From: Endozoicomonas sp. G2_2
Lineage (GTDB): Bacteria > Pseudomonadota > Gammaproteobacteria > Nevskiales > Salinisphaeraceae
NCBI RefSeq assembly: GCF_017744135.1
Contig: NZ_JAGHQU010000008.1
Location: 1 to 64,000 of the forward strand
Length of the DNA stretch: 64,000 nt
Reading direction: 5' to 3'
Shown here in pieces: positions 35,444 to 50,233 of this stretch. Made by a program: the position numbers and the translations under genes. How positions within the stretch are numbered: the stretch's first letter is position 1; every line of letters starts with the position of its first letter. The notes below the pieces were generated by a model, which was not told where the DNA came from, searched no databases, and saw only the letters and a list, made by a program, of their open reading frames with translations.

Positions 35444-36229
35444 GTGTCGCGCGCGCCGGCCACCCCGGGCGTCGCGCAGCGCTGGAGCGCACGCGATCGC
35501 CTGCCGTCGCGGCAAACGCAGATCGTCCCGGGCGCGCTGTTACCGCGGGGCTGGCGGGCCGGCGTCGCCGACGACGGGCTGACCGCGGCGTTCTATACGC
35601 CGCAGCGCTGCCTGAGTTCGGCCGTGGCCCACGGCGGTCTGGTAGCGGCCGAGGGGCTGGTCAATCGTCATGTTGGCGATGCCGATCGCGACGCACTGCA
35701 GGCGCCGGAGGCGCTCGTGGCGGATTTCGCCCGTCGGCGCGGGCTGGGCGCGGCCACCGTCGGCATGCTCACCGGGGCTTCGATGCGCACTCTGCGCGTG
35801 GCCTGTGCCGAGCGCGAGGGCGAGCGTGTGACCGTGCTGGTCACGGCAGGGCTGGCCAATGCACGCCGCGCCGGTGACACCGCCGACCAGTCGACGCTGC
35901 GGCGCCCGCTGCAGGCGATCGGCACGATCAATCTCGTGCTGGCGACCACGCTGACGCTGGCGCCGGCCGCGCTCGCGGAAACACTGACCACGCTGACCGA
36001 AGCCAAGACGGCCACCCTGGCTGATCTGGGTATTGTCAGCCCGGTATCCGGCGCTCTTGCAACCGGTACCGGAACTGATGCGACCGCCGTGTTCTGCGCT
36101 CGCGACGGCGCGCCGCTGCACTACACCGGCAAGCACACCGCGTTTGGCGAGATGGCCGCGCGGCTGGTCATCGATACGCTGGGTGATGCGATCGCCCATG
36201 ATCGGGACTGGGCGGGGGGCTGCGGCTAA
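35444..36229 (+). CDS. cbiZ: Adenosylcobinamide amidohydrolase
   Basis: A 261-residue protein of the CbiZ family, which cuts the aminopropanol arm off adenosylcobinamide to give adenosylcobyric acid, allowing corrinoids with the wrong lower ligand to be rebuilt. Marks are [11 protein letters not shown] near residue 52, [13 protein letters not shown] near residue 105, [13 protein letters not shown] near residue 131, [13 protein letters not shown] near residue 159, [10 protein letters not shown] near residue 205 and [10 protein letters not shown] near residue 225. Start GTG at 35444; cobQ follows after one base. CbiZ was first described in archaea and in some bacteria; the amidase assignment is by family. 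Confidence 0.88.
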
Positions 36230-36230
36230 C

Positions 36231-37667
36231 ATGGCGAAAACCCTCATGATCCAGGGCACGGCCAGCGACGCGGGCAAGTCCACCGTGGTCGCCGGGCTGG
36301 GTCGTGCCTGGCATCGCCGCGGGGTGGCGGTGGCGCCGTTCAAGCCGCAGAACATGGCGCTCAACAGCGCGGTGTCGGTCGACGGCGGCGAGATCGCCCG
36401 TGCCCAGGCCGTGCAGGCCCAGGCCTGCGGGCTGGCGCCGACAATCGACATGAGCCCGGTGCTGCTCAAGCCGTCCAGCGACCGGGATGCCCAGGTCATC
36501 GTCCACGGCCACGCCGTGGGTTCGATGGCTGCCGACGGCTATCACGCCTACAAGCGCACGGCGATGGCGGCCGTGCTCGAATCCCACGCGCGCCTGGCGG
36601 CGGGCTACGAGCGCGTGCTGGTGGAGGGCGCGGGCAGCCCGGCCGAAATCAACCTGCGCGAAAATGATATCGCCAACATGGGCTTCGCCGAGGCGGTGGA
36701 CTGCCCCGTGGTGCTGGTCGCCGATATCGACAAGGGCGGCGTGTTCGCCCAGATCGTGGGCACGCTCGCGCTGCTGTCGGACACCGAGCGTGCACGAATC
36801 GCGGGTTTCATCATCAATCGCTTTCGCGGCGATATCGAACTGCTGCGCCCCGGCCTCGACTGGCTGGAGCGTAAGACCGGAAAGCCGGTCTTCGGCGTTC
36901 TGCCCTGGATCGACGGGCTGTATCTGGAAGCCGAGGACGCCATCGCCCTCGATCAGCGCAGGGCCGACGATGCGGCGTTCGTGGTTCAGGTGCCGGTGCT
37001 GCCACGTATTTCCAACCATACCGATCTCGACGCGCTGCGCCTGATGCCGGGGGTGGATCTGCAATGGGTCGGGCCGGGCCAGCGTCCCGGCGGTGCCGAT
37101 CTGATCGTGTTGCCGGGCTCGAAGAACGTCCGCGCCGACCGGCAGTGGCTGCGGGCCAACGGCTGGGATGCGCATATCGCCCGTCATCTGCGCTATGGCG
37201 GGCGCGTGCTGGGAATCTGCGGCGGCTACCAGATGCTCGGGCGTTCGATCGACGACCCCGAGGGCGTGGAAGATGCGCCGGGGCGCGTCGACGGGCTGGG
37301 TCTGCTCGATATCGCCACCGAGATCCGCGCCGAGAAACGGCTGGAAAATGTCCGCGGCGCGCTCGCGGCCGGCGACGCGCCGGTGCAGGGCTATCGGATT
37401 CATTGCGGCGTGACCCGCGGCGCGGGGCTCGGCCGGCCGTTCCTCGCGCTCGAGGACGGCGACGACGGGGCTATCAGCGACGACGGCGCCGTGGCCGGCA
37501 CCTACCTGCACGGCCTGTTCGACAGCGCCGCCGGCTGCAAGGCGCTGCTCGCCTGGGCCGGTCTCGACGATGCCGCCACCGAAGACGTGGCCGCCGTGCG
37601 CGAACGCCTGTTCGAACGGCTGGCCGACGCCATCGAAGCCGCGATCGATCTCGAGGCGCTGCCGTGA
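36231..37667 (+). CDS. cobQ: Cobyric acid synthase
   Basis: A 478-residue glutamine-dependent amidase that adds four amide groups to adenosylcobyrinic acid a,c-diamide. The N-terminal dethiobiotin-synthetase-like domain has [18 protein letters not shown] at residues 6-23 and [14 protein letters not shown] near residue 130. The C-terminal amidotransferase domain has the nucleophile in [12 protein letters not shown] near residue 328 and the catalytic histidine in GTYLHGLF near residue 424. ATG at 36231; its stop overlaps the GTG of btuC. Its presence means the cell can take cobyrinic diamide, made or salvaged, forward. Confidence 0.95.
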
Positions 37668-38671
37668 GTCCGCGCCGGCTCGTTTGGCTGCTCGCTGTCG
37701 CGCTGCCGATCTGCCTGCTCGCAGCGGTGCTGTACGGGGCGGTACGCCTGCCGGCCCTGGATGTGCTTGCCGTGTTGGTCGGTTGGGACGATGGCATGGA
37801 TCGGCTGGCACTGATCGTGCGCCAGCTGCGCCTGCCGCGTGCGCTGCTCACCGCCCTCGTGGGTGCCCTGCTGGCAATCTGCGGGGCCGCGATGCAGGGG
37901 CTGTTTCGCAATCCGCTGGCCGATCCCTCGCTGATCGGCGTGACCGCCGGCGCTTCGGTCGGCGCGAGTCTGGTCATTGTCTTCGGTTCGGGGCTGGCGG
38001 GATTCGTCGGCCTGTCGCTGGTCTCGCTGGGCGCGTTCGCCGGCGGCACGGCCGCGGTGCTGCTGGTCTATCGTCTGGCGACTGGTCCGGAAGGCACCTC
38101 GGTCGCGACCATGCTGCTGGCCGGCATTGCTATCGGCGCGCTTGCGGGCAGCGTCGGCTCGCTGCTGGAGTTTTATGCCGACAACGAAATGTTGCGGCGA
38201 ATCAGCCTCTGGCGCATGGGCGGGCTCGACGGCGCCAACTGGTCGCGCGTGGTTATCGTGGCCGGCGTGGGCGCGCTGATTCTGGCCGTGCTTCCGCGCC
38301 AGGCCGCGGCGCTCAACGCCCTGCTGTTGGGCGAATCCGAAGCGCGGCATCTGGGTATCGCGGTCGACCGGGTCAAACGCCGGCTGGTGCTGCTGACTGC
38401 GGCCGGCGTCGGCGTGTCGGTGGCGGTGGCCGGGGCGATCACTTTCGTGGGGCTGGTCGTACCGCATATCGTGCGCATGCTGATCGGCCCCGATCATCGC
38501 TGGCTGCTGCCGGCCTCGGCGATGGCCGGGGCGATTCTGCTGCTGGTCGCCGATACCCTGGCGCGTGTTGTGATTGCCCCCACCGAGCTGCCCGTCGGGT
38601 TGCTCACGGCGCTGCTCGGCGCGCCGTTTTTCATCTCGCTGCTGCGCCGGCGGCGCGAGTACGGCCTGTGA
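37664..38671 (+). CDS. btuC: Cobalamin ABC transporter permease (FecCD family)
   Basis: A 335-residue inner-membrane permease of the BtuC/FecCD family with about ten hydrophobic segments. Family marks are [37 protein letters not shown] near residue 50, the ATPase-coupling [11 protein letters not shown] near residue 222, and [19 protein letters not shown] near residue 260. GTG start at 37664 overlaps the cobQ stop (GTGA). With the adjacent ATPase and the BtuF-type binding protein at the operon end it forms a BtuCDF importer for corrinoids. Confidence 0.92.
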
Positions 38672-39453
38672 GTCGGCCGATGCTCGAGGTGGAGCGGCTC
38701 ACGCTGTCCGCGGGCGGCCGCACGGTCGTGGACGCCGCCGACTTTTCGCTCGCCGCGGGTGAGCACCTTGCGGTGATCGGCCCCAACGGCGCCGGCAAAT
38801 CGAGCCTGATTCATGCGTTGATCGGCGATACCCGCCCGATCGCCGGTCAGGTGCGCATTGCCGGGCAGCCTCTGGACGACTGGCCGGCGCGCGAACGAGC
38901 GTGTCGCGTGGCGCTGCTGCCGCAGGCCAGCGCGCTGAACTTTCCGTTCACGGTGGCCGAGGTGGTACGCCTCGGACGTGGCCCCCATGCCTCGGGTCGG
39001 CGTGCCGATCGCCAAATCGTGGATGAGGCCCTGGCCGCCTGCGATATCGCGCATCTGCGCGATCGGCCCTATACCCGGTTATCGGGGGGTGAGAAACAGC
39101 GCGTGCAGCTGGCGCGGGTGATGATCCAGGTCTGGCGCGAGCGCGATGCGGGCAACCGGCTGCTGCTGCTCGACGAGCCCGTGGCGGCCCTCGATCTCGG
39201 CCATCAGCGATGGGTCATGCGCCAGGTCGCCGCCCTCGCCGCGCAAGGGGTGGCGATCGTGAGCGTTCTGCACGACATCAGCCTGGCGGCACGCCATGCC
39301 GATCGCATGCTCGCCCTGCGCGATGGCATCACCATTGCGCACGGCAAGCCGACCGACGTGGTCACGGCCGAACGCATGCAGCAGCTGTTCGACACGCAGA
39401 CGCGGGTGATCACGCATCCGGATTCGGGCACCCCGGTGGTGTTGCATGGCTGA
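38668..39453 (+). CDS. btuD: ABC transporter ATP-binding protein, cobalamin/heme type
   Basis: A 261-residue ABC ATPase: Walker A GPNGAGKSS near residue 39, Q-loop LLPQASALNFPFTV near residue 83, signature RLSGGEKQRVQLARVM near residue 137, Walker B LLLLDEPVAALDL near residue 165 and switch VLHDISLAARHAD near residue 200. The Q-loop region is like HmuV heme ATPases, but its place between btuC and cobU makes corrinoid import the likely role. GTG at 38668 overlaps the btuC stop; ATG at 38680 is an alternative start. Confidence 0.9.
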   Translation: MSRPMLEVERLTLSAGGRTVVDAADFSLAAGEHLAVIGPNGAGKSSLIHALIGDTRPIAGQVRIAGQPLDDWPARERACRVALLPQASALNFPFTVAEVVRLGRGPHASGRRADRQIVDEALAACDIAHLRDRPYTRLSGGEKQRVQLARVMIQVWRERDAGNRLLLLDEPVAALDLGHQRWVMRQVAALAAQGVAIVSVLHDISLAARHADRMLALRDGITIAHGKPTDVVTAERMQQLFDTQTRVITHPDSGTPVVLHG

Positions 39454-40012
39454 TCGACCGCCGTCCGACGCCGACGACAACGCGGCCCGAACGCTGATAC
39501 TCGGCGGGGTGCGCAGCGGCAAGAGTCGATACGCGGAGACACGCGCGTTGTCGCTCGACGTGTCGCGCTGGTGCTATGTCGCGACCGCACGGGCCGGCGA
39601 TGCGGAAATGGCAGCGCGCATCCGTCACCACCGCGAACAGCGCGACCCGCGTTGGCAGACGGTGGAGGCACCGCTCGGCCTCGGCGCCTGCCTGCGCCGG
39701 CTGGACGCGCCCCACACCTGCATTCTCGTGGATTGTCTTACCCTGTGGCTGAGCAACTGCCTCGCCGACGAGGCCGATGCCGGGCGCTGGGCGGCGGAAC
39801 GGGAGGCGCTGCTCGCCGCCGTGGCAGACAGCCGCGCGCGCCTTGTCTTCGTGTCCAACGAAGTGGGTTCCGGCATCGTGCCGTTGGGCGCGCTGTCGCG
39901 GCGTTTTGCCGACGAGGCGGGGCGCTTGCACCAGGCGCTTGCCGCCCACTGCGACACGGTGACGCTGGTGGTGGCCGGCCTGCCCTTGACCCTCAAGGAG
40001 TCCGATACATGA
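39446..40012 (+). CDS. cobU: Adenosylcobinamide kinase / adenosylcobinamide-phosphate guanylyltransferase
   Basis: A 188-residue bifunctional enzyme that phosphorylates adenosylcobinamide and then links GMP to it. The P-loop is GGVRSGKSRYAE near residue 20, the guanylylated histidine lies in RIRHHREQRD near residue 58, and VDCLTLWLSN near residue 98 and SNEVGSGIVP near residue 137 complete the family pattern. It overlaps btuD by 8 nt, and its TGA overlaps the cobT ATG. The kinase activity on cobinamide would compete with CbiZ for the same substrate. Confidence 0.95.
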   Translation: MADRPPSDADDNAARTLILGGVRSGKSRYAETRALSLDVSRWCYVATARAGDAEMAARIRHHREQRDPRWQTVEAPLGLGACLRRLDAPHTCILVDCLTLWLSNCLADEADAGRWAAEREALLAAVADSRARLVFVSNEVGSGIVPLGALSRRFADEAGRLHQALAAHCDTVTLVVAGLPLTLKESDT

Positions 40013-41073
40013 ATGCCTGGTGGCAACAGCCGGTGGCAATGATCGATACGGCCGCCATGGCCGCCGCGCAGGCACGCCAGGCGGTGCTGACCAAGCCGCC
40101 CGGCGCGCTCGGCCGGCTGGAAACCGTCGCCGAGACGTTCGCCGGCTGGCAGGGGCGCGCCGTGCCCGCGCTCGATCGGGTGGATATCGCGGTGTTCGCG
40201 GCCGATCACGGGGTCACGGCACGCGGCGTATCCGCCTTCGATCAGGCGGTCACCGGGCAGATGATCGCCAATTTCGCCGCCGGGGGCGCCGCCATCTGCG
40301 TGCTCGCCCGGCGCCATGGCGCGCGGCTTGCGGTCGTCGATGTCGGCGCCGTCGCGCCACCCGCGGGCGTCGCCGGCGTGATCGACGCGCGTATCGCGCC
40401 GGGCACGGCCGATTTCACCGAAACGGCCGCGATGTCCGCCGGCCAGCTCGATCGCGCGCTGCAGGTCGGGCGCGAACGCGTTTCCGCGTCGGCGGATCTG
40501 TTCATCGGTGGTGAAATGGGTATCGGCAATACCACGAGTGCCGCCGCGGTATTCGCAGCGCTTACCGGCCGGGCCCCGGCCGAGGTCGTCGGTCGGGGTG
40601 CCGGGGTCGACGCGGCCGGGCTGGCACGCAAGCAGGCCGTGGTAGCCGCCGGTCTGGAACGCCACCGCGCGCGCTGGGCCCACATGCAGGGTGCGCGGCG
40701 GGCGCAGGCGGTGCTGCGCTGTGTCGGCGGCTTCGAGATCGCCGCCCTGGCCGGCAGTTTCGTCGCCGCGGCCCAGGCCGGTGTGCCGGTGCTCGTCGAT
40801 GGATTCATCGCCGGCGTGGCCGCGCTGTGCGCGCGCGAGATCGCCCCGGATTGCCGGCATTGGCAGATTTTCGGCCATCGTTCGGCGGAGATCGGGCACA
40901 CCCGGCTTCTGGACACGCTCGCGGCGCGGCCGCTGCTCGATCTCGACATGCGGCTCGGCGAGGGCAGCGGCGCGGCGTTAGCGCTCGGCGTGATCGGCGA
41001 CGCCCTGGCGCTGCACGCCGAGATGGCCACGTTCGACGAAGCCGGCGTTGCCGCCTCCGACGCCGATGGCTGA
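40009..41073 (+). CDS. cobT: Nicotinate-nucleotide-dimethylbenzimidazole phosphoribosyltransferase
   Basis: A 354-residue enzyme that makes alpha-ribazole phosphate, the lower-ligand nucleotide of cobalamin. Family marks are TKPPGALGRLE near residue 28, VFAADHGVTARGVSAF near residue 62, GGEMGIGNTTSAAAV near residue 167 and the catalytic glutamate in DMRLGEGSGAALAL near residue 318. ATG at 40009 overlaps the cobU stop (ATGA). The lower-ligand base itself must come from elsewhere; no bluB or bza gene lies in the window. Confidence 0.96.
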   Translation: MNAWWQQPVAMIDTAAMAAAQARQAVLTKPPGALGRLETVAETFAGWQGRAVPALDRVDIAVFAADHGVTARGVSAFDQAVTGQMIANFAAGGAAICVLARRHGARLAVVDVGAVAPPAGVAGVIDARIAPGTADFTETAAMSAGQLDRALQVGRERVSASADLFIGGEMGIGNTTSAAAVFAALTGRAPAEVVGRGAGVDAAGLARKQAVVAAGLERHRARWAHMQGARRAQAVLRCVGGFEIAALAGSFVAAAQAGVPVLVDGFIAGVAALCAREIAPDCRHWQIFGHRSAEIGHTRLLDTLAARPLLDLDMRLGEGSGAALALGVIGDALALHAEMATFDEAGVAASDADG

Positions 41074-41689
41074 GACGATCGCCACCACCATCGATCTGTT
41101 GCGCCACGGCGAATGCGAGGGCGGCGCGATCTTTCGCGGCCACCTGGACGTGGCACTCGCCGAGGCCGGTCTCGCGCGCATGCAGGCCTGCGCGGGCACC
41201 CAGCGCGGCTGGCAGCGCATCCTCGCCTCGCCGCTGCGCCGTTGCCGGTTCTTCGCCGAGTGGCTGGCGGCCGAGCGGGGCCTGCCGCTGACCCTCGACG
41301 ACCGCCTGCGCGAGATCGATTTCGGGCGCTGGGAAGGCCGTGAGACCGCTGCCGTGTGGGCCGAGGAGGCCGAAGCCGCCCAGGCCTGGTTCGACGATCC
41401 CGAGGGCCATGGCCCGCCCGGCGGCGAGACCCTGGCCGCGCTGCGCGAGCGCGCACGCGCGGCTTTCGACGAGGCGGTACGGACCCATGCCGGCAGCCAT
41501 GTGGTGCTGGTCACCCACGGCGGCTGGATACGGGCATTGCTGGCCGATCTGCTGGCCATGCCCGCTGCGGCCATGCATCGTCTGGACGTGCCCTATGCCT
41601 GTCTGAGCCGTCTGCGCGTGGTTCGCGATGGCCGGCGTAGCTTGTGTCAGCTCGTCGCCCACAATATCGATGCGGGTGCGAGCCGATGA
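41066..41689 (+). CDS. cobC: Alpha-ribazole phosphatase (histidine phosphatase)
   Basis: A 207-residue histidine-phosphatase-fold protein. The catalytic RHG is in IDLLRHGECEGG near residue 11, LASPLRRCRFFAEWLA near residue 54 and VVLVTHGGWIRALL near residue 153 supply the second arginine and histidine. In this operon the role is removal of the phosphate from alpha-ribazole phosphate or from cobalamin phosphate. ATG 41066 overlaps cobT by 8 nt and the stop overlaps the cobS ATG. Confidence 0.9.
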   Translation: MAETIATTIDLLRHGECEGGAIFRGHLDVALAEAGLARMQACAGTQRGWQRILASPLRRCRFFAEWLAAERGLPLTLDDRLREIDFGRWEGRETAAVWAEEAEAAQAWFDDPEGHGPPGGETLAALRERARAAFDEAVRTHAGSHVVLVTHGGWIRALLADLLAMPAAAMHRLDVPYACLSRLRVVRDGRRSLCQLVAHNIDAGASR

Positions 41690-42510
41690 TCCCGCGGCTG
41701 ATCGCTTTCGTCCGGCCCCTGGGGCTTGCGCTCGCGCTGCTGACGACACTTCCGGTGGGACGCTGGGTGGCCTCGCCTGTTTCGCCTGCCGATCCGGGGC
41801 GTTCGGTGCTGTGGTACCCGGTGGTGGGGCTGTTGATCGGCATGCTGCTCGCGAGCCTCGCGTGGCTGTTGTCTGGCGTGGATGCGCCTCTGGGCGCGGC
41901 GCTGGTGGTGGTGCTCTGGGTGGTATTGACCGGCGCGCTGCATCTCGACGGTCTCGCCGATTGCGTGGATGCCTGGTTTGCCGGCCACGGCCGCGATGCG
42001 GCGGCACGCACTCTGGCCGTGATGAAGGACCCGGCCGCCGGGCCGATGGCGGTGGTCGCGCTGTTGCTCGTGCTTGGTCTCAAGGGCGCAGCGATCGCGG
42101 CGATCTGGCCCGCGCTGTCGTCCTCGCCCGGATCCGGATTCTGGTGGCCGCCGCCGCTCGTTGGGCTGCTCGCGGTGGTGCCGGTACTCGCCCGAGTGGC
42201 AGCGATGCTGTTCATGGCGACCACCGCCTATCGGCGCGCCCAGGGCCTGGCCAGTGCGCTCGACGCCCAGTTGCCGCGGGCGGCCGCCTGGCTCGTTGCG
42301 GGCGGGGGCGTCGCGTTCGTGCTGGTGTGCGCGGGCCTTGCCGCCGGCGTGATCATGGCGCTCGGCGCGTTGTTCGTGAGCCTGGGCTGGCGGGCGCTCT
42401 GGCAACGCCGTATCGGTGGCTACACCGGCGACGTGGTCGGCGGGCTCATCGAACTCGTGGAGGTCGCGGTCTTGGTGATCGCGGCGTTGTGGGCCACCCC
42501 ATGGGTCTGA
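41686..42510 (+). CDS. cobS: Cobalamin synthase (adenosylcobinamide-GDP ribazoletransferase)
   Basis: A 274-residue inner-membrane enzyme that joins alpha-ribazole to adenosylcobinamide-GDP, the last assembly step. About six hydrophobic segments are visible. The metal-binding signature LTGALHLDGLADCVDAWFAG lies near residue 80, followed by MKDPAAGPM near residue 114 and the C-terminal RRIGGYTGDVVGGLIELVEV near residue 240. ATG at 41686 overlaps the cobC stop; it overlaps cbiB by 10 nt. Confidence 0.95.
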   Translation: MIPRLIAFVRPLGLALALLTTLPVGRWVASPVSPADPGRSVLWYPVVGLLIGMLLASLAWLLSGVDAPLGAALVVVLWVVLTGALHLDGLADCVDAWFAGHGRDAAARTLAVMKDPAAGPMAVVALLLVLGLKGAAIAAIWPALSSSPGSGFWWPPPLVGLLAVVPVLARVAAMLFMATTAYRRAQGLASALDAQLPRAAAWLVAGGGVAFVLVCAGLAAGVIMALGALFVSLGWRALWQRRIGGYTGDVVGGLIELVEVAVLVIAALWATPWV

Positions 42511-43427
42511 CCGCCGCCCTGATTGCCGGCATCCTGCTCGACGCGCTGTGCGGCGAACCGCGACGTGCGCATCCACTGGTCGCTTTCGGTCGGCTCGCGG
42601 ATGCGCTGGACCGGCGCCTGCCGCGGCGGCGGAGTGCCGGCTTGCTGGCCCTGCTCGTGCTTGTGGCGGGGCCGGCCGCATTGGCCGGCGGGTTGTTGTC
42701 GCCGCTGCCGACGCCGGCCGGCTGGGTCGCGGCGGCGTTGCTGCTCTGGCTGTGCATCGCCTGGCACAGCCTCAAGGATCATGCGCGCGCGGTGGTCGTT
42801 GCCCTGCGAGGGCACGATCTCGTCGGGGCGCGTCGCGCGGTGGCTCGCCTGGTCAGCCGCGAGACGGACACCATGGCGGCGCCGGCGATCCGCTGCGCGG
42901 TGCTCGAATCGCTGCTGGAAAACGCCAGCGACGGCGTGCATGTCACGCTGTTCTGGTTTGCCGCGGGCGGACTGGTGGCCGGGCCGGCCGGCGCCAGCGT
43001 ATGCGTTGTGGCGCATCGTGTCATCAATACGCTGGATGCCATGTGGGGCTATCGCACACCGACCCATGTGCGTTTCGGCTGGGCTGCGGCACGGGCCGAC
43101 GATCTGGCCAATGCCCCGGGTGCACGGCTGGCCGCCCTGTCCCTGGCACTCATGGGCGACCGTCGCGCGGGCCTGCGCTGCTGGCGCGATCAGGCCGCGG
43201 CGCTGGCCAGCCCCAACGCCGGCCCGGTGATGTGCGCCGGCGCCGGTGCGCTGGGTATACGGCTGGGCGGCGGGGCGCGCTACCACGGCGCGTATCGCGA
43301 GCGCCCGGTTTTCGGTTGTGGGCGCCCGCCCGACGATGCGGATATCGAACGCGCGATCACGCTGATTGGCCGCACGCTATGGCTGTGGGTGGCCGTGATC
43401 GCGCTGGTGGACTGGACATGGCACTGA
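42501..43427 (+). CDS. cbiB: Adenosylcobinamide-phosphate synthase
   Basis: A 308-residue inner-membrane enzyme that attaches aminopropanol phosphate to adenosylcobyric acid. The family start is GEPRRAHPLVAFGRL near residue 14, with SRETDTMAAPAIRCAVLESL near residue 121, ENASDGVHVTLFW near residue 140 and MWGYRTPTHVRFGWAAARADD near residue 182. ATG at 42501 lies inside the end of cobS, and its own last 10 nt lie inside cobD. It would use both newly made cobyric acid and the product of CbiZ. Confidence 0.95.
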   Translation: MGLTAALIAGILLDALCGEPRRAHPLVAFGRLADALDRRLPRRRSAGLLALLVLVAGPAALAGGLLSPLPTPAGWVAAALLLWLCIAWHSLKDHARAVVVALRGHDLVGARRAVARLVSRETDTMAAPAIRCAVLESLLENASDGVHVTLFWFAAGGLVAGPAGASVCVVAHRVINTLDAMWGYRTPTHVRFGWAAARADDLANAPGARLAALSLALMGDRRAGLRCWRDQAAALASPNAGPVMCAGAGALGIRLGGGARYHGAYRERPVFGCGRPPDDADIERAITLIGRTLWLWVAVIALVDWTWH

Positions 43428-44467
43428 CACACGGCGGCCAACTCGGCGAAGCCAGTCGGCGTTACCACATCCCCGCGGGGGACTGGCTCGATCTGTCCAC
43501 CGGCATCGCGCCCTGGCCGTACCCGGTGCCCGAGGTGCCGGCGCGGGTATGGGCACGATTGCCCGAGGCCGACGACGGCCTGCTAGAGGCCGCGGCCGCT
43601 TACTATCGTGCGCCCGTAGCGGCCGTCACGGCCCTGCCGGGCAGTCAGTTCGCCATTCGCGAGTTGCCGCGCGCGATCGCGTCGCTCACTGGCCGCGCGC
43701 GGGTTGGCGTGCCCGCCGTCGGCTATGCCGAACATGCGCGCGCCTGGCAGGCCGCCGGCCACGAAATCGTGTTCTATGCAGACCTCGCGGCGCTGGGCAG
43801 GCAAGCGTCGGCGCTCGATCACGCGGTGGTGATCAGCCCCAACAACCCGACCGGGGAGTCGGCCGATACCGCCACGTTGAACACGCTGGCCCACGAGCTG
43901 GGCCAGCGCGACGGGCTGCTGGTGCTCGATGCGGCGTTTGCCGACTGCTATGGCGACCTGGATATTTCCGTATTGCCGGACAACGTCGTCGTGCTGCGGT
44001 CGGTCGGCAAGTTCTTCGGTCTGGCCGGGCTGCGGCTGGGGTTCATGATCGGCACCGGCGATGCGGTCGCGACGATACGGGATCAGCTGGCGCCCTGGGG
44101 CGTGAGCCATCCGGCGCGCTGGATCGGTCGTCGCGCACTGGTCGATGGCGACTGGCAGGCGGCACAGCGACAGCGTATTGCCGAAAGCGTGCACCGCCTC
44201 GCCGCACTGCTGAGAACCCGCTTCGCGCCCGCGGACATTGTCAGCGCCGGTCTGTTTGCCAGCGTGTTCTTCGACCGTGCGGGCCATGCGTCGACCGTGC
44301 ACGAGGCGCTGGCCGCACAGGCCGTGCTGGCCCGACTCGGCGACAACGGGCGCTGGCTGCGTTTCGGTCTGCCGGCCGATGCGAGTGCCCGCGCGCGGCT
44401 GGCGGCCGCACTGGGCGTGGGCATACCCGCTCGCGCCGGATTCCACGACGATGGAGCCGATCGATGA
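43418..44467 (+). CDS. cobD: Threonine-phosphate decarboxylase
   Basis: A 349-residue PLP enzyme of the histidinol-phosphate aminotransferase fold; it makes aminopropanol phosphate from threonine phosphate for CbiB. Typical parts are LTHGGQLGEASRRYHIP at the start, LDLSTGIAPWPYP near residue 24, SPNNPTGES near residue 145, DAAFADCYG near residue 171 and the PLP lysine in RSVGKFFGLAGLRLGF near residue 194. ATG at 43418 overlaps cbiB by 10 nt; the stop overlaps the btuF ATG. Confidence 0.93.
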   Translation: MALTHGGQLGEASRRYHIPAGDWLDLSTGIAPWPYPVPEVPARVWARLPEADDGLLEAAAAYYRAPVAAVTALPGSQFAIRELPRAIASLTGRARVGVPAVGYAEHARAWQAAGHEIVFYADLAALGRQASALDHAVVISPNNPTGESADTATLNTLAHELGQRDGLLVLDAAFADCYGDLDISVLPDNVVVLRSVGKFFGLAGLRLGFMIGTGDAVATIRDQLAPWGVSHPARWIGRRALVDGDWQAAQRQRIAESVHRLAALLRTRFAPADIVSAGLFASVFFDRAGHASTVHEALAAQAVLARLGDNGRWLRFGLPADASARARLAAALGVGIPARAGFHDDGADR

Positions 44468-45396
44468 AGCAGACGAGCACGGGTGCAGTCGGCTCGCGGC
44501 GCCGCGCGGTTATTTCGGCCGCGATGATGATGATCGGTGTGGCCGCGTGGGCCGCGAGCGCAGCGGCTGCGGTCCAGGTGACCGATTTTCGCGGCGAAAC
44601 CGTCCGGCTCGAGGCGCCCGCGCGACGGATCGTCGCGCTTGCCCCGCATCTGGTGGAAAATCTCTATACCGCAGGGCTCGGTGATCGAATCGTCGGCGCG
44701 GTCTCGCACAGCGACTACCCGCCGGCGGCGCGCGCCATTCCGGAGGTGGGCGGGTATACCAACATCAGCCTCGAGGCGGTGGTCGCGCGCAACCCCGATC
44801 TGGTGGTTGCCTGGGCGTCCGGTCAGGGCGGCGATCCGGCCACGCTCGCGCGCTTCGAGGCGTTCGGGATTCCGGTCTATGTGGATCGGCCACGCCGCCT
44901 CGCGGATATCGGTCGCGCGATCACCGATTTCGGCGTGCTGGGCGGGACAAGCGAAACCGCCGATGCCGCCGCCAGCCGTTTCGATCGGCGCCTGAACGCG
45001 CTGCGTTCGCGGTACGGCACGCGGGCCCCGGTGAGCGTGTTCTATCAGGTCTGGAACGATCCGCTGCAAACGCTCGCCGGGGAGCAGTTCGTGGGTCAGG
45101 TGATCCGTCTTTGTGGCGGGCGCAATATCTTCGCGGACGCGGTGTCGCTGGCGCCCAAGGTGGGGATCGAATCCGTGCTCGAGCGTGATCCGCAGGCGAT
45201 CGTGGCCAGCGGCATGGGCGACGAGCGGCCGGACTGGCTGGATGACTGGCGCGACTGGCCCGGCCTGCAGGCCGTCGCGCACGAGCATCTGTTCTTCGTC
45301 GCACCGGACATCATCCAGCGGGCGACCGTGCGGGTGCTCGCGGGGGCGACCACGCTGTGCCGGCAACTCGAAAGCGTACGCCGCGACGCCGACTGA
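44464..45396 (+). CDS. btuF: Cobalamin-binding periplasmic protein
   Basis: A 310-residue binding protein of the BtuF/FepB type. A signal peptide covers residues 1-36 (ISAAMMMIGVAAWAASAAAA), then VTDFRGETVRLEAPARRIVALAPHLVENLYTAG and GYTNISLEAVVARNPDLVVAW match the family. It would hand corrinoids to the BtuCD importer encoded six genes earlier. It ends the block; the stop at 45396 is followed by an AT-rich gap. ATG at 44464 overlaps the cobD stop. Confidence 0.9.
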   Translation: MKQTSTGAVGSRRRAVISAAMMMIGVAAWAASAAAAVQVTDFRGETVRLEAPARRIVALAPHLVENLYTAGLGDRIVGAVSHSDYPPAARAIPEVGGYTNISLEAVVARNPDLVVAWASGQGGDPATLARFEAFGIPVYVDRPRRLADIGRAITDFGVLGGTSETADAAASRFDRRLNALRSRYGTRAPVSVFYQVWNDPLQTLAGEQFVGQVIRLCGGRNIFADAVSLAPKVGIESVLERDPQAIVASGMGDERPDWLDDWRDWPGLQAVAHEHLFFVAPDIIQRATVRVLAGATTLCRQLESVRRDAD

Positions 45397-46347: not shown

Positions 46348-47577
46348 CTAGGCGGTGGTGACGGGCCTCGCCTCGGCCGCCACGATCGGCGTGTCGCGGA
46401 TCGGCCAGTGCAGCGCGGCGGCGACCAGGGCCAGCACGATGGACGCGATCCAGCTCTGGTCGTAGCTGCCGGTCAGCGTATAGGACCAGCCCGCGGCCCA
46501 GGCGCCGAAGAAGCTGCCGAACTGGTGGCTCATGAACACCACGCCGAACAGCAGCGATAGATGCCGCATGCCGAAAATCTGACCGACGAGGCCGCTGGTC
46601 AGCGGCACCGTGCCGAGCCAGAGAAAGCCGATGGCCGCGCTGAACACAAGCGCACTGGTGGCGCTCAGCGGCAGTGCCACGAACAGGGTGATCACGCCGG
46701 CACGCGCGAGATATAGCCAGGTGAGCACGTGCTTCTTGCGGTAGCGGCCCGCGCAGAAGCCGAAATAGTACGAGCCGAAGATGTTGAACAGCCCGATGAG
46801 CGCCAGTGAGGCGGCGCCGATCGTGGCGTCGAGGCCGCCATCGCCGAGATAGGCCGGCAGGTGTGTCGACAGAAAGGTGATGTGAAAACCGCAGACGAAA
46901 AAGCCGGCGTTCAGCAGTAGAAACCCCGAGTGGCGAGAAGCCTGTCGCAGGGCCTGCCACGAGCCGGTATCCGTACCGTCTGCCAGGGCCTCGCGCGGCG
47001 CGCGCCCGGTCACGCCACGCGCGAGCGCGACGATCAAGAGCATGAGCCCGGCCAGTACGAGCAGGGTCTCGCGCCAGCCGGCCAGGTCGATCACTTCCTG
47101 CGTAAACGGCACGACCAGGAACTGGCCGACCGAGCCGCCGGCGGTCACGATGCCGAAGGCGCGTCCGCGCTGGTCGGCGTTGACCACCCGGCCGATCGCG
47201 CCGAGCACGACCACGAACGTCGTGCCCGCGAGCGCCAGCCCCACCAGCACGCCCAGGCTGGCGTTAATGCCGAGCGCGCTGCCCACGGTAGCCGCCAGCG
47301 CCAGGCCGCCGGCATAGAGCAGCGCGCCGACAGCGATCACCCGGCCGGCGCCGTGGCGGTCCGCGGCGGCGCCGACCGAAGGCTGGACCAGCCCGAACAG
47401 CAGGCTCTGAATCGCGATGGCGAGGCCGAAACTTTCCCGGTCGATGGCGATGTCGCCCGACATCGGCAGCAGGAACAGCCCGAACGCCTGGCGGGCGCCC
47501 ATCGACAGCGTAACGATGGCCGCGCCGCAGGCCACCATGACCCAGGGCGACATGCGCCGGGTGTCAGATGTCTTCAT
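46348..47577 (-). CDS. MFS transporter
   Basis: A 409-residue inner-membrane major-facilitator protein with twelve hydrophobic segments. It starts MSPWVMVACGAAIVTLSMGARQAFGLFLLPM, close to the oxalate/formate-like and monocarboxylate subgroup, and has AAADRHGAGRVIAVGAL in loop 2-3 near residue 70. Substrate unknown. Its ATG lies inside the 3' end of a marR-type gene that has been interrupted by a stop codon, so it was presumably controlled by that regulator. Confidence 0.88.
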   Translation of the reverse strand: MKTSDTRRMSPWVMVACGAAIVTLSMGARQAFGLFLLPMSGDIAIDRESFGLAIAIQSLLFGLVQPSVGAAADRHGAGRVIAVGALLYAGGLALAATVGSALGINASLGVLVGLALAGTTFVVVLGAIGRVVNADQRGRAFGIVTAGGSVGQFLVVPFTQEVIDLAGWRETLLVLAGLMLLIVALARGVTGRAPREALADGTDTGSWQALRQASRHSGFLLLNAGFFVCGFHITFLSTHLPAYLGDGGLDATIGAASLALIGLFNIFGSYYFGFCAGRYRKKHVLTWLYLARAGVITLFVALPLSATSALVFSAAIGFLWLGTVPLTSGLVGQIFGMRHLSLLFGVVFMSHQFGSFFGAWAAGWSYTLTGSYDQSWIASIVLALVAAALHWPIRDTPIVAAEARPVTTA

Positions 47578-48007
47578 TCGGCGCGCGCTCCAGTTGGTCG
47601 AGCAAGGTGAACAGGGTGTCGCGGTCGCTGCCCAGCCGGGCCACGGCGCGCTCCTGCGCGCGTTGTCAAAGCGGGTCTGCGCGCTCGAGCGTGGCGCGCC
47701 CGGCGTCGGTCAGGCAGGCCTCGCGTCTGCGGCGATCCGTGCCGCGCCGTATGTCGATCCATGCGGCGCGCTCGAGCGGGCGCAGCGTGCGTGCCAGCGT
47801 GCTGCGCTCGTGCCCTGTGGCGCGCGCCAGGGCCTGCACGCCGATCGGGCCCAGTCGTTCGATATGGCGCAGCAGCGAGAACTGCGCCACGGTGAGCCCG
47901 GCCGGTGCCAGCGTTTCGTCATACAGCAGGGTGAGCGCGCGGGCGCCGCGACGTAGCCGCGCACAGACGCAGGCGCTGTCATCGCTATTGGGTGTATATG
48001 CACGCAT
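47564..48007 (-). pseudogene. MarR-family regulator with premature in-frame stop
   Basis: The frame from ATG 48007 encodes a MarR winged-helix core: LYDETLAPAGLTVAQFSLLRHIERLG, GVQALARATGHERSTLARTLRPLE and RRGTDRRRREACLTDAG. At 47668-47666 a TGA follows ADPL, giving only 113 residues. Past it the same frame continues sensibly (QRAQERAVARLGSDRDTL, then FTLLDQL) to a second stop at 47566-47564, which overlaps the MFS ATG by 14 nt, as in an intact regulator-transporter pair. In relatives this position is commonly a tryptophan, so TGG to TGA is the simplest reading. The last dimerisation helix is lost. Confidence 0.8.
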
Positions 48008-48184
48008 TGCGAGGACGCTATCGCGAAACCGTGTTGCCTGCACGCCTTTCATGCCCGCCGGCGCAACAGTCACCGGCGGTGCTGCGCGCGGTCGACGGAT
48101 GGCGGATTGCGCTGCAATGGCGATCGTGCAAGAGTCGCCCGAAACGCTATTTCACAAAAAAAGTCAGCTCTTGGAGGAGAACCC

Positions 48185-49345
48185 ATGCTGCAGTTGATTG
48201 CCCGACGTTCCCTGGCTGCGCTGGCGGCCACGCCGCTGCTCGCGCTGTGCCTGTTCGCGAGTGCCACCAGTGCCCAGGCCCAGGACATGCCCCGGACCAT
48301 GATCTGGACCGCCTACGACCTCGGTGCATCCGGCTATGCCGAAGCCTCCGCCATTGCCGACGCGTTCGGGCGCGAGTACGGCATGCGGGTGCGCATCCAG
48401 CCCTCCGGCTCGGCGATCGGGCGTCTGCAGCCCATTCTCAACGGCCGCGCGGATATCGGTTTTCTCGGCAACGAGGCCTTCTTCGCGACCGAGGGCCTGT
48501 TCGACTTCTCCACCCGCCGTTTCGGCCCGCAGGACCTGCGCGTGCTCATGGGCAAGGTCAATTCCTTTGGCATGGCGGTCGCCGCCGACGCCGGGATCGA
48601 GACGGTGGCCGATGTTGAGGGCAAGCGCGTGGCCTATCCGGCCGCCAACCCGTCGAGCAGCCTGAAGTGCGATGCCATGCTGGCTTTTGCCGGCCTGACC
48701 CGCGACGACGTCGAGGTGGTCACATTCCCGACCTATGCCGCGACCATGGCCTCGCTGTCCGAAAACAAGGCCGACGTCACCTGCACGGTCACGGCCACGG
48801 GCCAGATGTATGAACTGGCCGAGTCGCCGCGCGGTATCCAGTGGCTCGACCTGGATCCGAACGACGAGGCGGGCTGGGAACGTCTGAACAACGTCGCGCC
48901 GCTGTTCAAGCCTGTATCGGAAGCCCAGGGTGCCGGCCTGTCGGAAGACGATCCGGCCCAGCTCATGGCCTATCGCTACCCGGTACTGACGGTACGCGCG
49001 GACATGGATGACGACACCGCCTATGCGGTGACCAAGGCACTCGATGAAACCTACGGCATCTACAAGAACGCCACGGCCACCGCGCCGCGTTACGAGATCG
49101 AAAAGGCCGCCGTGCCGCCGATCGATGCGCCTTTCCACCCCGGTGCGGTACGTTATCTCAAGGAGATCGGCGTCTGGAACGACGCGTCGCAGCAGTGGAA
49201 CAGCGACCGGCTCGAGCGCCTGAATGCGCTGCGCGCGGCCTGGGGCGAAACGCTCGAACAGGGTTCGGACCTCGACGAGGATGCCTTCGCCGATCTGTGG
49301 GACAAGCACCGCGAGCAGGCGCTGGCGGAGCTCGAGCAGAACTAG
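48185..49345 (+). CDS. TAXI-family TRAP transporter solute-binding protein
   Basis: A 386-residue periplasmic binding protein of the TAXI (TRAP-associated extracytoplasmic immunogenic) family. The signal peptide is LAALAATPLLALCLFASATSAQA, and the mature part has YAEASAIADAFGREYGMRVRIQPSGSAIGRLQPILNG near residue 50, GRADIGFLGNEAFFA and DVEGKRVAYPAANPSS near residue 150. ATG 48185 has GGAGGAGA close upstream. TRAP systems need membrane subunits, but none lies next to it, so it must work with a permease encoded elsewhere or have another role. Ligand unknown. Confidence 0.85.
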   Translation: MLQLIARRSLAALAATPLLALCLFASATSAQAQDMPRTMIWTAYDLGASGYAEASAIADAFGREYGMRVRIQPSGSAIGRLQPILNGRADIGFLGNEAFFATEGLFDFSTRRFGPQDLRVLMGKVNSFGMAVAADAGIETVADVEGKRVAYPAANPSSSLKCDAMLAFAGLTRDDVEVVTFPTYAATMASLSENKADVTCTVTATGQMYELAESPRGIQWLDLDPNDEAGWERLNNVAPLFKPVSEAQGAGLSEDDPAQLMAYRYPVLTVRADMDDDTAYAVTKALDETYGIYKNATATAPRYEIEKAAVPPIDAPFHPGAVRYLKEIGVWNDASQQWNSDRLERLNALRAAWGETLEQGSDLDEDAFADLWDKHREQALAELEQN

Positions 49346-49432
49346 GCACGGCCGCACAACAGGCGCCCGTTTGAATGCGCCCGCGCGGTGAATGCCGTGC
49401 GGGCGCCGCGTTTTCGACCAGAGACCGACGAC

Positions 49433-50233
49433 ATGACTGCACGACTCGAGAACAAGATCGCCATCATCACCGGGGCCACCAGCGGCATCGGTGAGGCTGC
49501 GGCCCGTCGTTTCGCCGAGGAAGGCGCCACGCTCATGCTTGCCGCCCGCAGTGTGGACAAGGGCGAGGCGCTGGCCGCCGAACTCGGCGACAAGGTCGCC
49601 TTCATGCGAACCGACGTCAGCAACGAAAACGAGATGGCGGCCCTCATCGATGCCACCGTCGAACGCTTCGGCCGGCTGGACTGCCTGTTCAACAACGCCG
49701 GCGCCGGCGAGCGCAGCACGGCGGAAACGATCGACGAAGCCAGCTTCGATCATTTCATGCGGCTGCTGGCCGGCAGCGTGGCCTTCGGTATCAAGCATGC
49801 CGCGCGCGTGATGAAGAGCAGCGGCGGCGGCAGCATCATCAATAACGCCAGCATCGCCGGCCACCGGCTCAGCCAGGGCGGCTATCTGTATTCCGGCGCC
49901 AAGGCGGCAGCAGCGCATTTCACCCGCATCGCCAGCGTGGAACTCGGTGAATACGGCATCCGCGTGAACGCCATTTCCCCGGGTGCCATCGCTACGCCGA
50001 TCTTCTGGGGCGGCTCGGCGCGGGCGCAGACCCTGTCCGACGAAGAGAATGCCGCCAAGCTCGACAAGCTCACCGGCAATCTTGCCCAGGCCACGCCGCT
50101 GCCGCGCTCGGGTTACGCGGTGGATATCGCCAACGCGGCGGTGTTTCTGGCCAGCGACGAGGCGTCGTTCGTTAACGGTCACGACCTGGTCGTCGACGGG
50201 GGCCGTATCCAGATGTTCAACGAAAAGAGCTGA
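49433..50233 (+). CDS. Short-chain dehydrogenase/reductase
   Basis: A 266-residue SDR with NAD(P)-binding TGATSGIGEAAARRF near residue 13, NNAGAG near residue 86, active Ser in IINNASIAGH near residue 140 and catalytic YSGAK at residue 153-157 region. The C-terminal DLVVDGGRIQ closes the fold. It oxidises or reduces an unknown alcohol or ketone. ATG at 49433 chosen over one at 49388. It is 87 bp after the TAXI protein gene, perhaps in the same transcript. Confidence 0.88.
   Translation: MTARLENKIAIITGATSGIGEAAARRFAEEGATLMLAARSVDKGEALAAELGDKVAFMRTDVSNENEMAALIDATVERFGRLDCLFNNAGAGERSTAETIDEASFDHFMRLLAGSVAFGIKHAARVMKSSGGGSIINNASIAGHRLSQGGYLYSGAKAAAAHFTRIASVELGEYGIRVNAISPGAIATPIFWGGSARAQTLSDEENAAKLDKLTGNLAQATPLPRSGYAVDIANAAVFLASDEASFVNGHDLVVDGGRIQMFNEKS

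Follow-up and report, generated by a model that had tools for sequence, protein, structure and literature searches.

The window, the whole 64,000-nucleotide stretch of DNA analysed here, carries on its minus strand a MarR regulator gene followed by an MFS transporter gene, and the regulator frame is interrupted by a single in-frame TGA. The features of the locus are as follows.

46348–47577, minus strand: MFS transporter gene, intact, 409 codons (PF07690, 111.3 bits, over cut-off)
48007–47564, minus strand: MarR regulator gene with its stop read through (MRAYTP...LERADPL-stop-QRAQ...NEDI-stop)
47669–48007, minus strand: MarR part before the stop, 113 codons from the ATG at 48007 (Pfam MarR_2 38.3 bits, MarR 36.5 bits)
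47666–47668, minus strand: in-frame TGA at residue 114, context CTT TGA C (Trp column of relatives)
47564–47665, minus strand: marR tail, 33 codons plus the natural TGA, encoding the rest of the C-terminal helix (frame reading, alignment A1 and structure model)
47992–48003, no strand assigned: probable MarR operator, near-palindrome GTGCATATACAC over the marR start (motif search and relatives)
48185–49345, plus strand: gene for a TAXI-type TRAP solute-binding protein, divergent and sharing the upstream region (TIGR02122)

No NCBIfam model among the 11 listed for the MFS gene reaches its cut-off, the best being SfMCT; the gene is 76–78% identical in three other genomes of the genus. The divergent gene scores 195.2 bits against TIGR02122, over cut-off, for the frame 48107–49345, within which the start at 48185 was picked by eye. 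Elsewhere in the window, a run of plus-strand frames at 35444–45396 presumably resembles cobalamin synthesis and uptake genes. Among the literature matches listed, judged by title and including those for Salinisphaera with MarR, none concerns this marR–MFS operon.

The reading frame bears out the layout described in the earlier note, in which one TGA is followed by 33 codons and a natural stop, and places it on the minus strand, which that note had left unstated. The end of marR (47564) and the start of the MFS gene (47577) overlap by 14 nt. Both PF12802 and PF01047 lie above their curated cut-offs on the part before the stop, and the winged-helix domain is complete there. The 33-residue tail alone has no match in Pfam or NCBIfam, which is unsurprising because it is a stretch of the dimer helix. 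Third-position GC in the tail is 0.88, close to the 0.89 of the MFS gene, while the other two tail frames give 0.78 and 0.44, and all four (nearly) invariant alignment columns behind the stop (A117, Q118, L132 and L136) are kept in the window. Together, the conserved columns and the codon composition argue that the open frame downstream of the stop did not arise by chance. At column 82, which is also nearly invariant, the window MarR has A where relatives have G.

The earlier note had further proposed that the stop occupies a tryptophan position, and this was confirmed by two comparisons. A tblastn search with X at the stop (147 residues) returned Trp at that column in 23 of 23 non-self matches, read by eye, and alignment A1 has Trp there in all 22 rows besides the window. 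Those 22 rows comprise 18 syntenic genes and four more distant ones (L002, L084, L086 and L097); the alignment omits L085, a near-duplicate of L084, the weaker MarR matches L003, L087–L096, L098–L101 and L103, and the relic L102 of genome G016 described below. The syntenic genes come from a set of 80 MFS loci in named genomes, 77 of which have at least 500 nt upstream. A MarR gene lies directly upstream of the MFS gene in 18 of these 77 loci and is full length in each. The other 59, two named Salinisphaera loci among them, lack such a marR, so this pairing with an MFS gene is not general. At one further locus (L073, outside the 77), only the end of marR is visible at a contig edge, and it was not counted among the 18.

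All 18 syntenic MarR genes end 3–5 residues past the last aligned column, and none ends at the stop position; intact relatives ending at that codon, which the earlier note had named beforehand as evidence against its reading, were not found. Across the class (369 genomes), a profile search that scored at most about 11 candidates per genome and retained those at E <= 1e-18, so that weak or badly decayed copies went uncounted, gave 36 matches in 32 genomes, and the window marR is the only one with an inner stop. The window stop thus interrupts a frame that is open in relatives, as expected of a pseudogene. The gene is otherwise little altered: the mean MarR distance to the 18 intact genes, divided by the corresponding mean for MFS, is 1.23 for the window, within the range of the intact genes themselves (1.22–1.55), and 1.70 for the G016 relic. 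Together with the third-position GC of the tail, this undecayed state indicates that the stop is either recent or an assembly error.

We then considered what the stop removes. A model of the read-through MarR (mean pLDDT 91) contains helices at residues 14–36, 40–52, 57–64 and 68–80, strands at 84–88 and 95–99, and a single helix at 101–141. In this model the stop would leave 13 of the 41 residues of the last helix and remove 28. The earlier note held that the truncated form lacks the last dimerisation helix; part of the C-terminal helix is indeed gone, and the predicted extent of the loss, 28 of the 41 residues of one long helix, exceeds what was stated. An excerpt of PMC5823404 describes N- and C-terminal helices as the basis of MarR dimers, and a passage of PMC9765716 places the dimer segments of E. 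coli MarR at residues 10–22 and 123–144. As encoded under table 11, the dimer-forming helices of the window MarR are incomplete, with residues 114–141 present only by read-through. The suggestion that a short form may act differently, as a monomeric or trans-dominant regulator of 113 residues, would fit the complete winged-helix domain. We consider such a working variant highly unlikely and find no support for it, in view of the missing 28 residues, the 18 syntenic genes that all run past this point, and the absence of an inner stop from the other 35 matches of the class profile search (E <= 1e-18 only).

With the stop read through, the best solved match by sequence is MosR (Rv1049; PDB 4fx0/4fx4; E 1.2e-15), which also ranks first in Foldseek for the read-through model (TM 0.78 by query). 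Residues 13 and 15 of the window MarR form a CxC motif that recurs in 18 of 18 syntenic relatives, whereas the four more distant A1 rows lack it. In M. tuberculosis MosR, Cys10 and Cys12 form a disulphide, according to a portion of PMC5823404. From this sequence likeness we infer that the window MarR may sense oxidation through its N-terminal CxC.

The near-palindrome GTGCATATACAC is the sole place matching GTGYATATRCAC in the 3.73 Mb genome. One match per genome is unremarkable by frequency; what stands out is its position at the marR start. In 14 of 18 intact relatives TGYATATRCA occurs exactly in the 80 nt preceding the first aligned codon, and in the remaining 4 it occurs there with one mismatch; among 4000 random 80-nt pieces drawn from these loci, 0.9% contain it with at most one mismatch. 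This pattern points to the near-palindrome at 47992–48003 as a probable MarR operator. All 18 relatives have an ATG 4–9 codons before the first cysteine of MarR. In the window, that interval holds no start codon, and the first ATG lies 12 codons before the cysteine, at 48007. As this ATG overlaps the operator-like site and no ATG lies nearer the cysteine, the true start of marR is uncertain. The missing ATG of the relatives (47968–48007 in the window) is a possible second lesion.

Related genomes bear on whether the lesion is real. Among 17 family genomes searched, the MFS gene is present in 4 (E <= 1e-60), the window genome included, and all four belong to one genus. They form a single clade in the MFS tree (100/99) whose inner order is not resolved, and none of the four has an intact repressor beside the MFS gene. 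In G016, the place of marR (L118 5579–5905, minus strand) holds an open relic of 108 codons, 32% identical to the window MarR, with Trp at the stop column. In a tblastn alignment forced into one frame, the pairwise DNA alignment being too poor to place indels, the relic lacks window residues 58–59, 74–77 and 82–104, the last of which is the whole wing (strands 84–88 and 95–99). An operator-like site lies 5 nt before the relic start codon. The relic stop and a possible MFS start share an ATGA, and despite its lost wing the relic was perhaps retained for translational coupling. Beyond the marR–MFS pair, similar SDR oxidoreductase genes occur in the window (49388–50233) and in G016 (L118 8092–8892), with intervening genes that differ, as judged by eye; this shared gene supports orthology of the locus. 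The stretches of 12.0 and 9.0 kb around the MFS gene in G006 and G007 contain neither marR nor an exact operator. In both genomes, a gene that we take to be nitronate-monooxygenase-like lies upstream of the MFS gene. The nonsense codon of the window and the wing deletion of G016 are separate events, because neither genome carries the lesion of the other.

The stop could instead be a sequencing or assembly error, in which case the living strain would have an intact marR. The undecayed tail would fit, the assembly is a 33-contig draft, and errors in it are possible given a frameshifted gene in the same genome. That gene, which we take to be an MFS gene of the DHA2/EmrB type (L138, G000:C11:424800–427300), runs in two overlapping frames, the break lying somewhere from C11:425886 to the end of its frame-1 part; it is itself a second broken gene or else a product of faulty assembly. 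Other gene families of this genome speak against an error: none of 52 ABC_tran matches has an inner stop, and the one flagged case among 35 MFS_1 matches is a gene open for 442 codons whose match merely overruns its natural stop. No MarR_2 match was flagged (0 of 11), a count that is uninformative on the window stop since the match ends before it. The three sister genomes have no intact marR beside the MFS gene, so a true lesion in the window would be no surprise, and a genuine mutation is favoured over a sequencing slip. We regard an error as unlikely.

The context of the stop raises the question of recoding. The heptamer CTT TGA C is identical to the shifty stop in the genome's own prfB (AGGGGGTATCTTTGAC), a +1 shift leads into the MFS frame, which has no stop between 47709 and the MFS start, and CTT is rare: three neighbouring genes use it for 1 of their 100 leucine codons. 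Leaky or programmed decoding here would yield full-length MarR by readthrough or a MarR–MFS fusion by a +1 slip. The region upstream of the marR stop, however, reads GCAGACCCG and has neither the SD-like AGGGGG nor the UAU/UCU spacer, both named parts of the RF2 site in an excerpt of PMC13245932. Structure downstream of the stop is no stronger than chance (z 0.68), the relatives carry Trp rather than a stop, and no SelB was found above cut-off. Such decoding is thus very improbable, and it is less probable still that the stop is in use, with some ribosomes reading through or slipping to give a full-length repressor or a fusion; were it so, transporter and regulator output would depend on RF2 activity. 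The shifty-stop context at marR is regarded as coincidence. Selenocysteine insertion was rejected: the 7 SelB matches in the single genome covered all fall short of the TIGR00475 cut-off, and the relatives have Trp, not Cys. Genome-wide recoding of TGA is not supported, as prfB is present and 85 of 143 stop-to-stop frames of at least 200 codons on both strands of the window end in TGA, a count that includes many non-gene frames.

Taken together, these results make it likely that marR, the gene for the local repressor of a marR–MFS operon of two genes, was recently inactivated by a nonsense mutation. In the ancestral state, a MosR-like MarR dimer, probably oxidation-sensing through its N-terminal CxC, would have bound the near-palindrome at the start of marR, repressing both marR and the MFS gene. 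The 113-residue product may fail to dimerise or may be degraded. No cognate repressor would then be left for the operator-like site, and any activity of the MFS promoter would lead to transcription of the gene. The natural consequence would be a derepressed transporter, a possibility already raised in the earlier note, and constitutive transport. In 14 of 18 relatives, a candidate ATG or GTG start in the MFS frame shares 4 or 8 nt with the end of marR; in the window, ribosomes would now halt 88 nt before the MFS start, breaking this stop/start overlap. Lost coupling could lower MFS translation and partly offset the gain from derepression. A MarR paralogue at C11:326880 in the same genome, 42% identical over residues 7–109, may conceivably act as a substitute repressor at the operator-like site. 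With possible coupling loss and a possible substitute, the net effect on transport is uncertain.

The case looks like the ordinary loss of a genetic switch and not a new mechanism. In related genomes a single local repressor has been damaged in differing ways or is missing, yet the transporter is retained, and the operator-like site persists in two of these genomes (the window and G016). Beyond the earlier note, the analysis adds a probable operator, a MosR-like CxC, a relic and absences in sister genomes, and the shifty-stop context. It also yields an operator motif conserved among relatives, and the pairing of a two-cysteine, MosR-like MarR with an MFS gene that lacks an assigned substrate.

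Three known systems offer points of comparison. The CUU UGA C of the programmed +1 frameshift in RF2 (prfB) is common to the marR stop, but the SD-like element and spacer codon of the full site, present in the genome's own prfB, are absent at marR. Like MosR (Rv1049), an oxidation-sensing MarR repressor, the window MarR has an N-terminal CxC (Cys10/Cys12 in MosR); unlike MosR, it is cut at residue 114 and adjoins an MFS transporter gene, and its redox response is putative. Finally, the window nonsense codon resembles loss-of-function marR alleles of E. coli, among which a passage of PMC9765716 reports nonsense alleles in resistant laboratory mutants. Here, by contrast, the allele occurs in a collection genome and not in a selected mutant, and the sister genomes also have no intact copy.
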